Of a stretch of DNA of 64,000 bases, positions 23,333 through 42,491 are shown in pieces. Source of the stretch: Phycisphaerae bacterium. GTDB taxonomy: Bacteria; Planctomycetota; Phycisphaerae; Sedimentisphaerales; Anaerobacaceae. The translations under genes and the position numbers were made by a program. The stretch lies in contig JAGOLX010000005.1 of NCBI GenBank assembly GCA_017993835.1, positions 70,019-134,018 of the forward strand. The letters run 5' to 3'. Position 1 is the stretch's first letter, and each line of letters begins with the position of its first letter. The notes under the pieces are model-generated. The model saw only the letters and a list, made by a program, of their open reading frames with translations. It searched no databases and had not been told where the DNA came from.

Positions 23333-25372
23333 ATGGCGGAAACCGAGGTGATCCTGCTGAAGCGGTTCGCCCGCAGCGGCGACGCAGAGGCGTTCGCAGA
23401 GATCATCCGTCGCTATGCAGGCTTGGTCTACAGTGCTGCCCTGAGGATCCTGGCGGACGTGGACCGGGCGTCGGATGTCGCCCAGGAGACCTTTCTGCAA
23501 CTGGCCAAGGACGCGGGCAGCGTGACCGGCTCGTTGCCGGGCTGGCTGCATCGCGTGGCGACCCACAAGGCCATCGACCAGGTCCGCAGGGACGCTACGC
23601 GGAGGCACCGGGAAGCCGAGTACACGGCCAGCCGTCCCCAGGAAGCCGCGGAATGGAAGGAGATCTCGCCCCATGTGGATGAGGCGCTCAACCTCCTGGA
23701 GCCGCACCTGCGGAACATCCTGATCGCCCACTTCCTGGAAGGTCGCTCCACGAGGGAAATCGCACGGGCACAGGGGGTCTCCCAGGCCACCATCTCCCGT
23801 CGCATCGAGACGGGGGTCGGACTGCTTCGAGCCGGGCTTCGCAGGCGAGGGATCCTGGTTGCCGTCGGGGCGTTGAGCATCCTGCTGGGAGAGAATGCCG
23901 TCCGGGCGGCGCCGCCGGTGCTGTTGACCGAACTGGGCAAGATTGCCCTGATCAGCGGGTCCCTGGCTGCCGCAACGGGCGGGACCTCCGCGGCCACGGG
24001 TCTGGGCGCCGTCGCGGCGAGTGCTCTGGCCGCGGTCAAGGCCAACCTCGTGGCGACCGCTGCTGTGGTGGCTATCGCGGCTGGGTCGTTCATGACCTAT
24101 CGGCAGGCAATGAAACCATCGAGAGAGGCGCCCGCCGCCTCTGGCGGCTTCGTCGTACAGAATCCGGCGGGGGGAACGTCCAACGCGACTTCCGATCCGC
24201 TGGCAGGGACCGCGCTCGTCGATGGATACCAAGGAGGCCAGCAGATAGCTGCCGCAGACGACCAAGCCGACCCGTCCTCTGCCGCAATGGCGCGACGTCC
24301 TGTTGCTCAAGCTCTTCCCGGTCCCGAGGCCGAGACGGATCCGCGAACCTACGTTCCGGGCCTCTCAGATCGCTCGGCGGATGCGATGCTCACGGCATCC
24401 GACACGACGCAGGAGGGTCTGCCAGATCAGTCGCCGCCGAGTATCCCGACGGATGCCGGTCCGCTGGCGCCAGGCTTCAGGCCTGCGAACGACAGGCAAC
24501 GGGAAGTGCCGTGGGCAAGGGAGACACCCTACGAGACGGTCATGCGGCTCCGCCGGGAGGCCATGGATAGGACTTCTGAAGCGCCTGCGTCTGTTGACCT
24601 GTCGGCCATGGTCCCTGTCGGTCCGGTTGTGGCCAAGGCCGAACTGACGCTGGTGCCGCCGTTCCTGGACTGTCCCGCGACGAACCTGGAGACCCAGCGG
24701 CAGGACACGACGACCGTCCGGCCGAGCGAGATGCTGGAGACGCCGCCCGATGCGCCCCGCGAGCCGGTGTACTTCGCCGTCCGCGCCGGGGATCGCCAGA
24801 TTCGCGGGATCACCTATCGGTCCATCCGTCCGCCGCGCGACGTGGTGCTCATCCTCGATACGGATGGCGACGGCCTGTGGTCCGACGAGACGCCCTACGT
24901 GGGCAGAAGGCTCTGGATGTTCGCGCTGACCGCGACGTATGAGTTCGGTCCCGTGTACCTGAAACAGGACCGGACGGAACCGGGAGGGGACGCATTCTAC
25001 CCGCAGTGCTCCGACGGCCGATGGCTGATGTTCTACCCGGCGTTCTACCGCGACGGGACGGTCGTCCTGGATGGTACGACCCACCGGATTACGCTGGTTG
25101 ATACCGACTTCGACGGGCGATTCAACGAGATGTCTGAACTGCCGGTCCTGGGCAGGCGGGACCCCGGCGGTGATGCAATCTCGATCGATGCCGCCTGCTT
25201 CGTCACATTGCCCGGCGGCGGTCGGCTGTCCAGGAAGGCGACCATGCCCCTGAGCAAGGTGATCGGCATCGACGGGCGGTATTACGGCATCGAAGTCGCC
25301 GAGGACGGCAGCACGATCGAATTCCGTCGGGCCGAGCCGGCGTCGGGGCGTTCAGATCCCGCCGAGCAATGA
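23333..25372 (+). CDS. ECF sigma factor fused to membrane span and outer domain
   Basis: A 679-residue protein. Sigma region 2 covers about 8-90 (YAGLVYSAALRILADVDRAS, DVAQETFLQLAKD, PGWLHRVATHKAIDQVRRD). Region 4 covers 112-170 (HFLEGRSTREIARAQGVSQA). Two hydrophobic stretches follow (172-215 and 237-254), then a low-complexity linker rich in Pro, Ala and Ser (about 258-390), then a beta-rich domain (about 396-672) beginning YETVMRLRREA and including DTDGDGLWSDETPYVG, FYPQCSDGRWL and LVDTDFDGRFNE. Large C-terminal extensions are known in planctomycete ECF groups. Topology suggests that the last domain is outside the membrane and senses a signal. The next gene encodes a secreted paralogue of this domain. 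Confidence 0.88.
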   Translation: MAETEVILLKRFARSGDAEAFAEIIRRYAGLVYSAALRILADVDRASDVAQETFLQLAKDAGSVTGSLPGWLHRVATHKAIDQVRRDATRRHREAEYTASRPQEAAEWKEISPHVDEALNLLEPHLRNILIAHFLEGRSTREIARAQGVSQATISRRIETGVGLLRAGLRRRGILVAVGALSILLGENAVRAAPPVLLTELGKIALISGSLAAATGGTSAATGLGAVAASALAAVKANLVATAAVVAIAAGSFMTYRQAMKPSREAPAASGGFVVQNPAGGTSNATSDPLAGTALVDGYQGGQQIAAADDQADPSSAAMARRPVAQALPGPEAETDPRTYVPGLSDRSADAMLTASDTTQEGLPDQSPPSIPTDAGPLAPGFRPANDRQREVPWARETPYETVMRLRREAMDRTSEAPASVDLSAMVPVGPVVAKAELTLVPPFLDCPATNLETQRQDTTTVRPSEMLETPPDAPREPVYFAVRAGDRQIRGITYRSIRPPRDVVLILDTDGDGLWSDETPYVGRRLWMFALTATYEFGPVYLKQDRTEPGGDAFYPQCSDGRWLMFYPAFYRDGTVVLDGTTHRITLVDTDFDGRFNEMSELPVLGRRDPGGDAISIDAACFVTLPGGGRLSRKATMPLSKVIGIDGRYYGIEVAEDGSTIEFRRAEPASGRSDPAEQ

Positions 25373-25419
25373 GCGACGCCCTGGCTCGATGCCGGGGTCG
25401 TGTCGAAGGAGACGATGCG

Positions 25420-26748
25420 ATGAAGGGTCTGGCCCAATGCTGTGAGTTCGTTGTTGTCTCGCTGGTTCTGACGACAGCCGCTCTTGCGACCGGCCGTCAG
25501 ACGACGGAGTCGCCCTATGAGATGGTCATGAGACTCCGGCGCGAGGCCGCGGCGAAGAAGTCTGAGCCGCAGGCCGTGTCGATCGGACCGGTCGTGGCCA
25601 GGGCCGAATTGAAGCTCGTTCCTCCCTTCCAATTCTGTCCCGCGACAGATCTGGGATTTCAGCGTCAGGATACGACGACGACCAGGCCGGCGGGAGTGCT
25701 GGAGACGCCGCCCGATGCGCCCCAGGAGCCGGTGTACTTCCCGGTTCGCGTGGGGGGCCGCGAGATCCGTGGGATTACCTACCGGTCCACCCGACCGCCG
25801 GGAGAGGTGATGCTCATTCTGGACCTCGACAGCGACGGTCGGTGGTCCGACGAGCGAGCCTACGTAGGGAGGTGGCTGCGCATATTCACGCTGCAGGCGG
25901 TATATGAGTTTGGCCCGGTCTATCTGAAGCAGGGCAGCAACCGACCGGGGGGCGACGTGTTCTATCCGCAATGCTCCGACGGGAAATGGCTGACCTTCTA
26001 TCCCGGCTTCTACCGCGACGGCAAAGTCCTTCTGGAGGGCAGGACCCGCCGGATCACGCTGGTCGATACCGACTTCGACGGGCGATTCAACGAGAGGTTC
26101 GAGCCGCCGGCGCGGGGCTCGCGAGACCCGAACTCCGATGTGATCGCGATCGATTGCGGCAGCATGGTGGACATGCCGGGCGGGGGCCGGCGATCCATCG
26201 CGGTGACTATGCCCCTGAGCAGACTGATCAACCTCGACGGGCGGTACTACGGCGTCGAGGTCGCCGAGGACGGCAGCACCATCGAGTTCCGTCAAGCCCA
26301 GCCGGCGTTCGGATCGCTCGATCTCGGCGGCAAGGAAGTGGTCATGGATCTGTGGTCGGATGCGGGACCCCAGAAGGTGAGCGGCGCCGGGCCGACCTGG
26401 CGGCTGCCCGCCGGCAGGTACTATCTGCGGTCGCTCGACCTGACCGAGGTGGACCGTGGGGACCGCTGGGCGTTCAGCATGACCTCGCCGGGGCAACTCA
26501 AGGACTTCCAGATCAAGCCCGGGCAGACGACCAGGCTCAAGATCGGCCCGCCGTTCCAGGCCAGGGGGTCGCTGCGCCGGTATGCCTACAGTCCGGACGT
26601 CACGGTCGGCGTCAACCTGGAAGGCCAGGCGGGCGAATGGTACAGCGCCGTCGTCACGAAGAACGAAAAGAACGTGCCGGAGCCGTCGTTCCGGATCCTC
26701 AACGGCGCCCAGCAGGTGGTGCAGTCGGGCCAGTTTGCCTATAGCTGA
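25420..26748 (+). CDS. Secreted paralogue of the sigma-factor outer domain (stops at in-frame TGA)
   Basis: A 442-residue protein up to its first stop. The ATG at 25420 has GAAGGAG at 7 bases and opens a signal peptide (FVVVSLVLTTAALATG). An upstream ATG at 25369 overlaps the sigma-factor stop as ATGA but lacks the signal. Residues 31-265 are closely similar to residues 397-672 of the preceding sigma factor: YEMVMRLRREA, ETPPDAPQEPVYFPVR, TDFDGRFNERF, MPLSRLINLDGRYYG. About 175 further residues form beta-rich domains absent from the sigma factor. The frame continues sensibly past the TGA at 26746 for 53 more codons (see next entries), so the protein may really be 495 residues. Likely cotranscribed with the sigma gene and possibly its partner or competitor for a ligand. 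Confidence 0.8.
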   Translation: MKGLAQCCEFVVVSLVLTTAALATGRQTTESPYEMVMRLRREAAAKKSEPQAVSIGPVVARAELKLVPPFQFCPATDLGFQRQDTTTTRPAGVLETPPDAPQEPVYFPVRVGGREIRGITYRSTRPPGEVMLILDLDSDGRWSDERAYVGRWLRIFTLQAVYEFGPVYLKQGSNRPGGDVFYPQCSDGKWLTFYPGFYRDGKVLLEGRTRRITLVDTDFDGRFNERFEPPARGSRDPNSDVIAIDCGSMVDMPGGGRRSIAVTMPLSRLINLDGRYYGVEVAEDGSTIEFRQAQPAFGSLDLGGKEVVMDLWSDAGPQKVSGAGPTWRLPAGRYYLRSLDLTEVDRGDRWAFSMTSPGQLKDFQIKPGQTTRLKIGPPFQARGSLRRYAYSPDVTVGVNLEGQAGEWYSAVVTKNEKNVPEPSFRILNGAQQVVQSGQFAYS

Positions 26749-26907
26749 GGCGCTGCCCGGTACTCGTGGCGAGTACCCCAAACGACCCGGTACGGCGGTT
26801 CCGACTACGGCCAGGGAATCCCTCCGGGGCCATACCGCATCGAAGTCCAGACCCACATGGATTCCTTCGAGGTCAGCCAGGACGACGCGTGGCTCACGCT
26901 GAATTGA
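26746..26907 (+). other. In-frame continuation beyond TGA (candidate Sec codon and C-terminal tail)
   Basis: Translation of the same frame after TGA 26746-26748 gives a protein-like tail of 53 codons ending at TGA 26905-26907. It includes ARYSWRVPQTTRYGG, DYGQGIPPGPYRIEVQTHM and DSFEVSQDDAWLTLN, with a regular beta-strand pattern and high-GC codon use. There is no alternative start and no frame change. This indicates that the TGA is either decoded (selenocysteine) or is a recent nonsense change. Confidence 0.6.
26759..26777 (+). promoter_or_regulatory. SECIS-like hairpin 10 bases after the TGA
   Basis: GGTACTCG-TGG-CGAGTACC is a perfect 8-bp stem with a G in the second loop position. If the closing pair opens, the loop is GTGGC, with a G first. 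Bacterial SECIS elements lie directly 3' of the UGA, with the apical loop roughly 16-37 nt downstream and a guanine among the first two loop bases; here the loop begins about 19 nt after the UGA. The hairpin is inside coding sequence if readthrough occurs and has no U-tract, so it is not a terminator. Confidence 0.5.
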
Positions 26908-40598: not shown

Positions 40599-42491
40599 TC
40601 ACTCTGCCCCCAGGTAACGGCTGGTCATGGGGGATAGGCGACTGCTATATCCCATCGTGTGGTGCGTCACGTCGTTGCGATAGAGCGGGTCCTGCATCAG
40701 GCAGACTCGTCGATCGCCCGCCGGGATGACCGTGCTGTAGATCCGCAGCTCGCCCAGGGTCACGGTGACCAGTTCCTCCCGCCAGTCGCCGAGGAGGTCG
40801 GCGACCTGGACGACGAAGCCCTCGATGCGGGCGCCCTGGATGGGCGAGAAGCCGCCCTCATTCCATTTGACCATGTTGCCGCGTCCCACGAATTCCCGCA
40901 GCAGGTCGGCGTCCCACCAGGCGACCAGGCCCTGCGGCGGCGCCTGTCCGGGCAGACGGACGCCCTTCGAGGAGTAGTAGAACCGTTCGCCCGCCAGCTC
41001 CAGGCCCGGACGGGTCGGATCGATATCGGCGGCCATGCAGTTGCTCAGCTCGTTGTCCCGCGTCGGCTCGTCGGCGCCGAAGAGGATCTGCCCGGTCCGC
41101 GCGTCCACCAGGCACGCTCCGTTGCGAGGGTGAGGCTCCTCGATCACATACCAGATTTCCCAGCCGGGACGGTCTGGGTCGATGTCGCCCATGTAGGAGC
41201 AGTCGCCATGGCCCAGGCCGGTGCCCCACAGGGTCCGACCGTCGTGGTCGATGGCGAGCGAGCCGTTGATGATCTCGTCGCAGCCGTCGGCGTCGATGTC
41301 GCCGGTCTTGACGGTGTGCTGGCCCTGGCCCTGGTACATGAACGGCGCCCGCTCGTTGGTCCACCGCCAGACCTTGCGGAGTTTGCGATTCTCCAGGACC
41401 CAGGCGTCGATCTTCATCATGCCGTAGGTGCCGCGGACCGCGAGCACCGCGGGGGTCTTGCCGTCCAGGTACGCGACCGCCAGCATGTGCCGGCTGGCGC
41501 GATTGCCCGTGTTGTCGCCCCAGTCTTGGACTTTGCCGAGCTCGATCCAGGGGACCCTGTCGATCTCCTCGCCTGTGGCGCCGTCGTAGACCGCCAGGTA
41601 CTCGGGTGCGTCGAGGAGGAACCCCGTCTTGCCGCTCGGGAGCATCTCGTCCGAGGTCGCGGCGTAGCTGGACGTTCGGACGCAGACTTCGGCGCGATGG
41701 TCGCCGTCCAGGTCGCGAACGACCATGGGAGTCCACCAGATGCCCATGTCCACGTTCCAGCCCAGGTCGATCCGCCAGAGGAAGGCGCCGGTCCTGCCGC
41801 TGTAGCCGTCGAACTTGTAGGAGCCGCGATTGGGACCGGCCCGGCCGGGGTCTTTGCCTTGGCCGGGGTGCTTGACGACGAAGTCGTAGACACCGTCGCC
41901 ATCGAGATCGGCGATGCCGACTGTCGCGATACCGCGGATGTCCTCCTTCAACGCGATGGACCTATACTGCTGCGGCGCCGGGTTGGCGGCCAGTTCGGCC
42001 GACTCGGAGGCCTCTCGCTCGACACCGTCCACGATCGCTCGGACGAACCACGCATTGGGCCGATCCGTCGGGGCTTTGTCGTCGACGAAGTCGGTCGTCG
42101 CGGCGATCGGGCGGTCGTTGAGCTTGGTCGGGCTCTCGCCGGCGGTCGAGCGATATACGTTGAATGTCACGTCCTGCGGGTCGTCCTTGAGCAGGCGCCA
42201 GCCGAGATAGACATGGCCGGGGTCCACCAGCAGGGCCAACATGCCGCGATTGAGCTTCTCCTCGATTCGCGTCGGGGACCAGCCCAGCACCGCGTTCGGA
42301 TCGTACAGCGGGTCGATCGCGTAGTAGTTCAAGTTCGGCGGGATCTCTTCCGGCGTGAGCTGTCGAAGGCCCCGTTCGTTGTCCGTCGGTGGGCGGAGGC
42401 CGCCAGACCCGCCCATCCTCGGGGGCTGTGCCGCTGCGACCGAGACGATTGTGCCGACCAAGGACAAGAACATAGAGAAGTCTCGGTTCAT
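40599..42491 (-). CDS. Secreted rhamnogalacturonan lyase, PL11 family
   Basis: A 630-residue exported protein of the PL11 family, whose members cleave the rhamnogalacturonan-I backbone by beta-elimination. A short signal sequence (FSMFLSLVGTIVSVAAA) precedes a fibronectin-like domain (VYLGWRLLKDDPQDVTFNVYRS) and an eight-bladed propeller with calcium-binding Asp-rich loops (ATVGIADLDGDGVYDFVVKHPG, VVRDLDGDHRAEVCVRTSS, KTGDIDADGCDEIINGSLAID, DLLGDWREELVTV). Compared with the second PL11 gene at 47950, it has an N-terminal insertion of about 50 residues (GLRQLTPEEIPPNLNYYAID). The ATG has AGGAGA at 9 bases. Exact substrate is inferred. Confidence 0.85.
   Translation of the reverse strand: MNRDFSMFLSLVGTIVSVAAAQPPRMGGSGGLRPPTDNERGLRQLTPEEIPPNLNYYAIDPLYDPNAVLGWSPTRIEEKLNRGMLALLVDPGHVYLGWRLLKDDPQDVTFNVYRSTAGESPTKLNDRPIAATTDFVDDKAPTDRPNAWFVRAIVDGVEREASESAELAANPAPQQYRSIALKEDIRGIATVGIADLDGDGVYDFVVKHPGQGKDPGRAGPNRGSYKFDGYSGRTGAFLWRIDLGWNVDMGIWWTPMVVRDLDGDHRAEVCVRTSSYAATSDEMLPSGKTGFLLDAPEYLAVYDGATGEEIDRVPWIELGKVQDWGDNTGNRASRHMLAVAYLDGKTPAVLAVRGTYGMMKIDAWVLENRKLRKVWRWTNERAPFMYQGQGQHTVKTGDIDADGCDEIINGSLAIDHDGRTLWGTGLGHGDCSYMGDIDPDRPGWEIWYVIEEPHPRNGACLVDARTGQILFGADEPTRDNELSNCMAADIDPTRPGLELAGERFYYSSKGVRLPGQAPPQGLVAWWDADLLREFVGRGNMVKWNEGGFSPIQGARIEGFVVQVADLLGDWREELVTVTLGELRIYSTVIPAGDRRVCLMQDPLYRNDVTHHTMGYSSRLSPMTSRYLGAE

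Follow-up and report, generated by a model that had tools for sequence, protein, structure and literature searches.

An in-frame UGA next to an ECF sigma factor gene of a Phycisphaerae bacterium: a probable selenocysteine codon in a large, apparently undescribed protein family

Bacterial selenoproteins that depend on a bSECIS element, such as formate dehydrogenase FdhA, combine an in-frame UGA with an intragenic hairpin just downstream and with the selenocysteine machinery of the host. About 119 selenoprotein families and subfamilies are listed in a 2026 review (PMC13188914). The homology step of deep-Sep may discard families without Cys homologues, and glycine reductase selenoprotein A (GrdA) has been named as a protein long believed to be without such homologues (PMC12013277).

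The gene described here lies in a 64,000-nt stretch of Phycisphaerae DNA, which we call the window, and presents the same combination of UGA, hairpin and machinery. Unlike the known bSECIS selenoproteins, its family has no listed motif or model, and its Cys homologues are nearly absent. The table of the review (PMC13188914) has no U-x-x-x-C entry and none matching the sequence of the family, Pfam and NCBIfam 20.0 hold no model of the Sec domain, and a description of the family was not found in the main texts of the open-access literature. Homology-based selenoprotein finders may have missed the family because it has almost no Cys forms.

We propose that TGA 26746 encodes selenocysteine in a member of a large and apparently undescribed selenoprotein family; we put the probability of this reading at roughly 0.93. 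SelB carrying Sec-tRNA(Sec) would bind the hairpin immediately 3' of the UGA and insert selenocysteine at TGA 26746. A further 52 codons would then be translated, completing the final beta sandwich of the exported protein.

The reading frame and its hairpin

The features of the window gene are as follows.

25406 to 25411, + strand: Shine-Dalgarno-like AAGGAG, 8 nt 5' of ATG 25420, from the sequence
25420 to 26904, + strand: proposed selenoprotein coding sequence of 495 aa with Sec as residue 443, translated with TGA as U
26746 to 26748, + strand: UGA codon, probably read as selenocysteine (U443); the TGA is shared with about 158 members of the family and with both congeneric orthologues
26749 to 26904, + strand: 52-codon post-Sec tail, predicted strands completing the C-terminal beta sandwich, from congener identity and pLDDT
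26759 to 26777, + strand: bSECIS-like hairpin of 8 bp with UGG loop, from its fold, family-wide covariation and synonymous codon constraint
26905 to 26907, + strand: terminating UGA, from the sequence

The best start for the ORF ended by TGA 26746-26748 is ATG 25420. A signal helix is predicted at residues 2-21 of the 495-aa protein, with beta-sandwich domains after it. The first-pass annotation had reported 53 open codons behind the TGA. The continuation is real and the count needs correction, as positions 26749-26904 hold 52 sense codons and the 53rd is the stop. Downstream of this second TGA (26905-26907) no SECIS-like stem of at least 7 bp was found. The length of the open tail was discarded as evidence, since 22 of 48 long TGA-ended frames in the GC-rich window stay open for at least 52 codons.

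The tail might be a separate downstream gene behind an ordinary stop, and the first ORF is by itself of protein length. As had been noticed at first reading, though, the tail stays in the same frame and has no suitably placed start codon; the conserved domain simply continues across the TGA, and the strands on its far side are modelled in the same sandwich. We consider two separate genes extremely improbable.

The hairpin, GGTACTCG-TGG-CGAGTACC at 26759-26777, starts ten bases 3' of the TGA, with 18 nt between UGA and loop. The early description of a perfect 8-bp stem at this distance, with G in one of the first two loop positions, proved accurate: the G is second (UGG) and the distance is as required. 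Such a stem, with the G rule and at SECIS distance, is rare in the window, following only 2 of its 1666 TGA triplets. The other of the two, at 40766, belongs to a frame of 12 codons and is thus a chance occurrence. Compared with shuffled sequences, the fold of the isolated hairpin is modest (z of -1.7 over 35 nt, no excess over 50 nt), and its folding energy, unexceptional in this comparison, was set aside as weak evidence. The strength of the argument must therefore come from comparative evidence.

The family, its UGA codons and the sel genes

When the 6.4 Mb assembly was searched with the read-through protein, at least 10 other genes proved to share the tail and the in-frame TGA, most of them reading FEYG-U-GGTC-xYSWRVP. 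The idea of a new selenoprotein is therefore upheld in its Sec reading and not as a lone candidate: the window gene would be one of at least 11 family members in its genome, with the hallmark F-x-Y-G-U-G-G-x-C-x-Y-S-W-R-x-P. Four of the genes stand in tandem on contig C115, with ...FEYG-U-GGTCRYSWRVP... or close variants, and others lie near; further ones are found on contigs C26, C112, C68 and C9. In the C26 gene 601 further open codons follow the TGA, and F5/8 type C and laminin-G domains are encoded there. A look-up of selA, selB, selC and selD, suggested from the outset, found all four on C115, together with six family genes.

C115:38898-38988: tRNA-Sec gene (selC), 76 bits, above the gathering score
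C115:21177-23060: selB
C115:35883-36809: selD
C115, immediately upstream of the tandem family genes and divergent from them: selA

An alignment of the family tails was run against 392 Planctomycetota genomes. It matched 46 places in 19 genomes, and 44 of these contain exactly one in-frame TGA. The two others are a Cys form in genome G388 and a diverged second copy in G050. This second copy (L052, G050:C186:3578-3820) carries neither TGA nor an evident Cys at the site (MEYEYGGRFGHCGYWW), possibly a case of Sec loss. In all 18 genomes with the TGA, one or more of selA, selB and selC is present (tRNA-Sec in 15, selB in 16). Taken by itself, this co-occurrence was rejected as weak evidence (P of 0.02 and 0.007), since the machinery is widespread: Sec genes occur in 228 and 236 of the 392 genomes, more than half of the phylum. 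We regard two parts of the association as informative, the Cys exception and physical linkage. In G388, which is 99% complete and has Cys at the site, no tRNA-Sec, selB or selA was found. This is the single UGA/Cys exchange seen among the homologues; Cys is otherwise almost absent.

A scan of GTDB genome DNA with a pattern accepting TGA, TGC or TGT at the site yielded 109 stretches. We inspected 86 matches: TGA stands at the site in 85, and the one with TGC is a short chance frame. The family occurs in at least six phyla (Planctomycetota, Verrucomicrobiota, Lentisphaerota (Lentisphaerae), Hydrogenedentota, Sumerlaeota/BRC1, Armatimonadota and others). Around its genes, 47 of 109 loci, of up to 8 kb each, include selA, selB, selC or selD, and family genes share a contig with sel genes also in Planctomycetota G284, G287, G031, G019, G192 and G008. 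The question whether homologues carry Cys or TGA at the position is thus answered: they have TGA, with Cys only in a genome where selA, selB and selC were not found.

Several further observations concern the same loci. Tandem family selenoprotein genes occur in L084, L093, L123 and L140, including a longer type with approximately 280-320 post-Sec codons. Extra domains are present in some members, namely leucine-rich repeats in L137 and laminin-G together with F5/8 domains behind Sec in L101 and L028. In two distant Planctomycetota a double-cubane-cluster anaerobic reductase (NF040772) is encoded inside the sel/family cluster (L026:15965-17236 and L198:5645-7030), and its relatives appear in 21 of the 109 loci; the reductase may be a source of reduced selenium or a redox partner. 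The sel operon of G284 encodes, beside a family gene, a SelD with a fused C-terminal AhpD-like domain (L198:7846-9456).

For the hairpin we collected 159 distinct members, 147 of which have TGG in the loop. The distance from the TGA to the start of the loop is 21 nt in 141 of these 147, 24 nt in 2 and 18 nt in 4, which include the window subfamily. In 59 diverse hairpins, changes on both sides were present in all seven stem pairs tested. Double-change cells number 69, compared with 17.7 +/- 3.4 in shuffled data (reached by 0 of 500 shuffles), and the covariation score is 0.502 against 0.150 +/- 0.019, with slid controls at most 0.138. Conserved amino acids are specified by the stem as well, and for this reason we examined synonymous sites, using the 75 members that have YSWR[VI]P. 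For Val, 56 of them use GTA (background 10%) and 18 use GTG, and the remaining one has Ile (ATA); GTC and GTT, 55% of the Val codons of the same genes, never occur there. Arg is CGA in 72 of 75 against a background of 12%, and for Ser all 75 use TCG or TCA against 34%. These codon choices fit base pairing and not the protein. The proposed bSECIS check thus ended with a SECIS-like element at fixed distance that covaries and biases synonymous codons.

Two explanations without selenium can be weighed here. In the first, readthrough of the UGA is programmed via another tRNA, or a truncated and an extended product form a regulated pair. A stop codon with downstream structure and a conserved extension is compatible with this in principle. 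It accounts poorly for the exclusive use of TGA, save for Cys in a sel-less genome, for a loop and distance that obey the bSECIS rule, and for the strong physical linkage to selA, selB, selC and selD; we consider it very unlikely. The second, named from the start as the simple alternative, is a recent nonsense mutation or a sequencing error at 26746. To turn a sense codon into TGA, one substitution is enough, and the window alone is compatible with such an event. The same TGA is nevertheless kept in congeners G392 and G396, in the paralogues and in about 158 homologues, and the tail is conserved, so this explanation is hardly tenable.

Taken together, sequence comparison has brought forward conservation of the TGA and of the tail, covariation in a SECIS-like hairpin, physical linkage with sel genes, and Cys where these are absent. 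The candidate put forward by the first-pass annotation is supported, and all of its proposed checks that were run favoured selenocysteine. We regard Sec insertion as close to certain across the family and as very likely in the window gene.

The window subfamily and its sigma factor

The window gene and its orthologues form an atypical subfamily in that the usual partner Cys, four residues past the presumed Sec, is missing. In place of the hallmark U-G-G-x-C, the window has U-G-A-A-R, G396 has U-G-V-A-T and G392 has U-G-V-A-A-C. The window copy also reads AYS instead of YG ahead of the UGA, and both congeners vary around the site. A few other family members likewise have no Cys at +4; the lack of Cys anywhere from +3 to +6 is rare within the family. 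These peculiarities speak for a copy that is decaying or repurposed in a family of genuine selenoproteins, its Sec nonfunctional and its UGA mostly a terminator.

Other properties of the orthologues argue against decay. They are 78% (G396) and 70% (G392) identical to the window protein before the TGA and both keep it; TGA, hairpin and tail have thus been retained through 22-30% protein divergence. In the tail, identity (79% and 75%) equals or exceeds that of the preceding part, and the differences between congeners fall chiefly on third codon positions, which points to purifying selection on the tail in this subfamily. Further, one stem pair of G392 has changed from A-U to G-C on both sides, turning Tyr into Cys and Val into Ala. 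We read this as a compensatory change made at the expense of the protein, which would be unexpected of a decaying gene. A decaying window copy is, in our view, unlikely. The conserved tail and the compensatory change in the stem suggest instead that the window subfamily has a translated tail and a hairpin that matters, in agreement with selenocysteine at TGA 26746.

Upstream of the selenoprotein gene lies one more feature.

23333 to 25372, + strand: ECF sigma factor gene with sigma70 regions 2 and 4 (Pfam Sigma70_r2 2e-11, Sigma70_r4_2 9.7e-8)

In its product a TM segment is predicted, and the C-terminal part is an extracytoplasmic copy of the family's N-terminal domain that lacks the Sec tail; this part is 67% identical to selenoprotein residues 29-317. 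The selenoprotein gene has an alternative ATG (25369) that overlaps with the stop of the sigma gene. In G392 the two genes are split as in the window. In G396 (L196:1856-4717) a single ORF runs from sigma regions 2 and 4 through a TM segment into the entire UGA-containing selenoprotein domain, which supports a functional partnership of the two proteins. A search of the open-access literature revealed no earlier description of a sigma-selenoprotein fusion.

Because the window selenoprotein is encoded with an ECF sigma factor, and fused to one in G396, its role is likely that of an extracytoplasmic input of the sigma factor, and control would presumably run in this direction. We suggest, tentatively and with less confidence, that an extracytoplasmic Sec (in G396 within the sigma factor chain, in the window on a separate partner protein) might sense a redox, metal or electrophile signal and control transcription via the ECF sigma. 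For the window gene we find ECF-sigma sensing the most interesting testable role. If true, it would represent a selenium-based transmembrane signalling system, and the fusion would place Sec in signal transduction.

Predicted structure and comparison with known systems

The AlphaFold2 model of the window protein consists of chained beta sandwiches (mean pLDDT 83.6). Its post-Sec strands sit in the last sandwich, with pLDDT of about 96 at residues 471-490. A short canonical member, modelled with Cys replacing Sec, reaches a pLDDT of 94.3 and has a membrane or signal helix; the Sec site ends the strand 170-173 and faces Cys177 across a GGT turn, so that a selenenylsulfide between Sec and Cys177 could form. 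We infer that in typical members this bond would form reversibly on the extracytoplasmic side, with Sec and the Cys at +4 placed opposite one another by a tight beta turn. In the window copy, which has no Cys at +4, an external thiol or ligand would probably pair with Sec. Searches of the PDB by fold returned only generic Ig-like or macroglobulin multi-sandwich matches of low TM and no overall structural relative, and a sequence search of solved structures found no relative. From this anatomy and by analogy, the biochemical role is presumably an extracytoplasmic redox or sensor function, with extracytoplasmic thiol-selenol redox chemistry as the default.

If our reading is true, the genes of a whole family of exported selenoproteins are called too short by gene callers, at least 11 of them in the genome of the window alone. 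The family would help to explain the retention of selenocysteine machinery in uncultured Planctomycetota. Its scarcity of Cys forms makes it a test case for homology-based selenoprotein tools, and its hairpins offer a new data set on SelB recognition.

Among described selenoproteins, those with a thioredoxin fold and UxxC or CxxU motifs (Trx, Grx, Prx, DsbA-like) resemble the family in having Sec near a Cys, a plausible redox pair. They differ in spacing, which here is UxxxC, and in fold: the window family is modelled as all-beta and Ig-like, and a thioredoxin fold was not seen in these sandwich models. GrdA is similar in that Cys forms are nearly absent in the window family too. Its motif and predicted fold are different, and GrdA is cytoplasmic, whereas the window family is exported and is found in the PVC group and other phyla. 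Finally, ECF sigma factors with C-terminal extensions are known from Planctomycetota, and the gene upstream of the selenoprotein gene, with its TM segment and extracytoplasmic extension, is of this type. What sets the present system apart from them is that in congener G396 the extension itself would be the selenoprotein domain.
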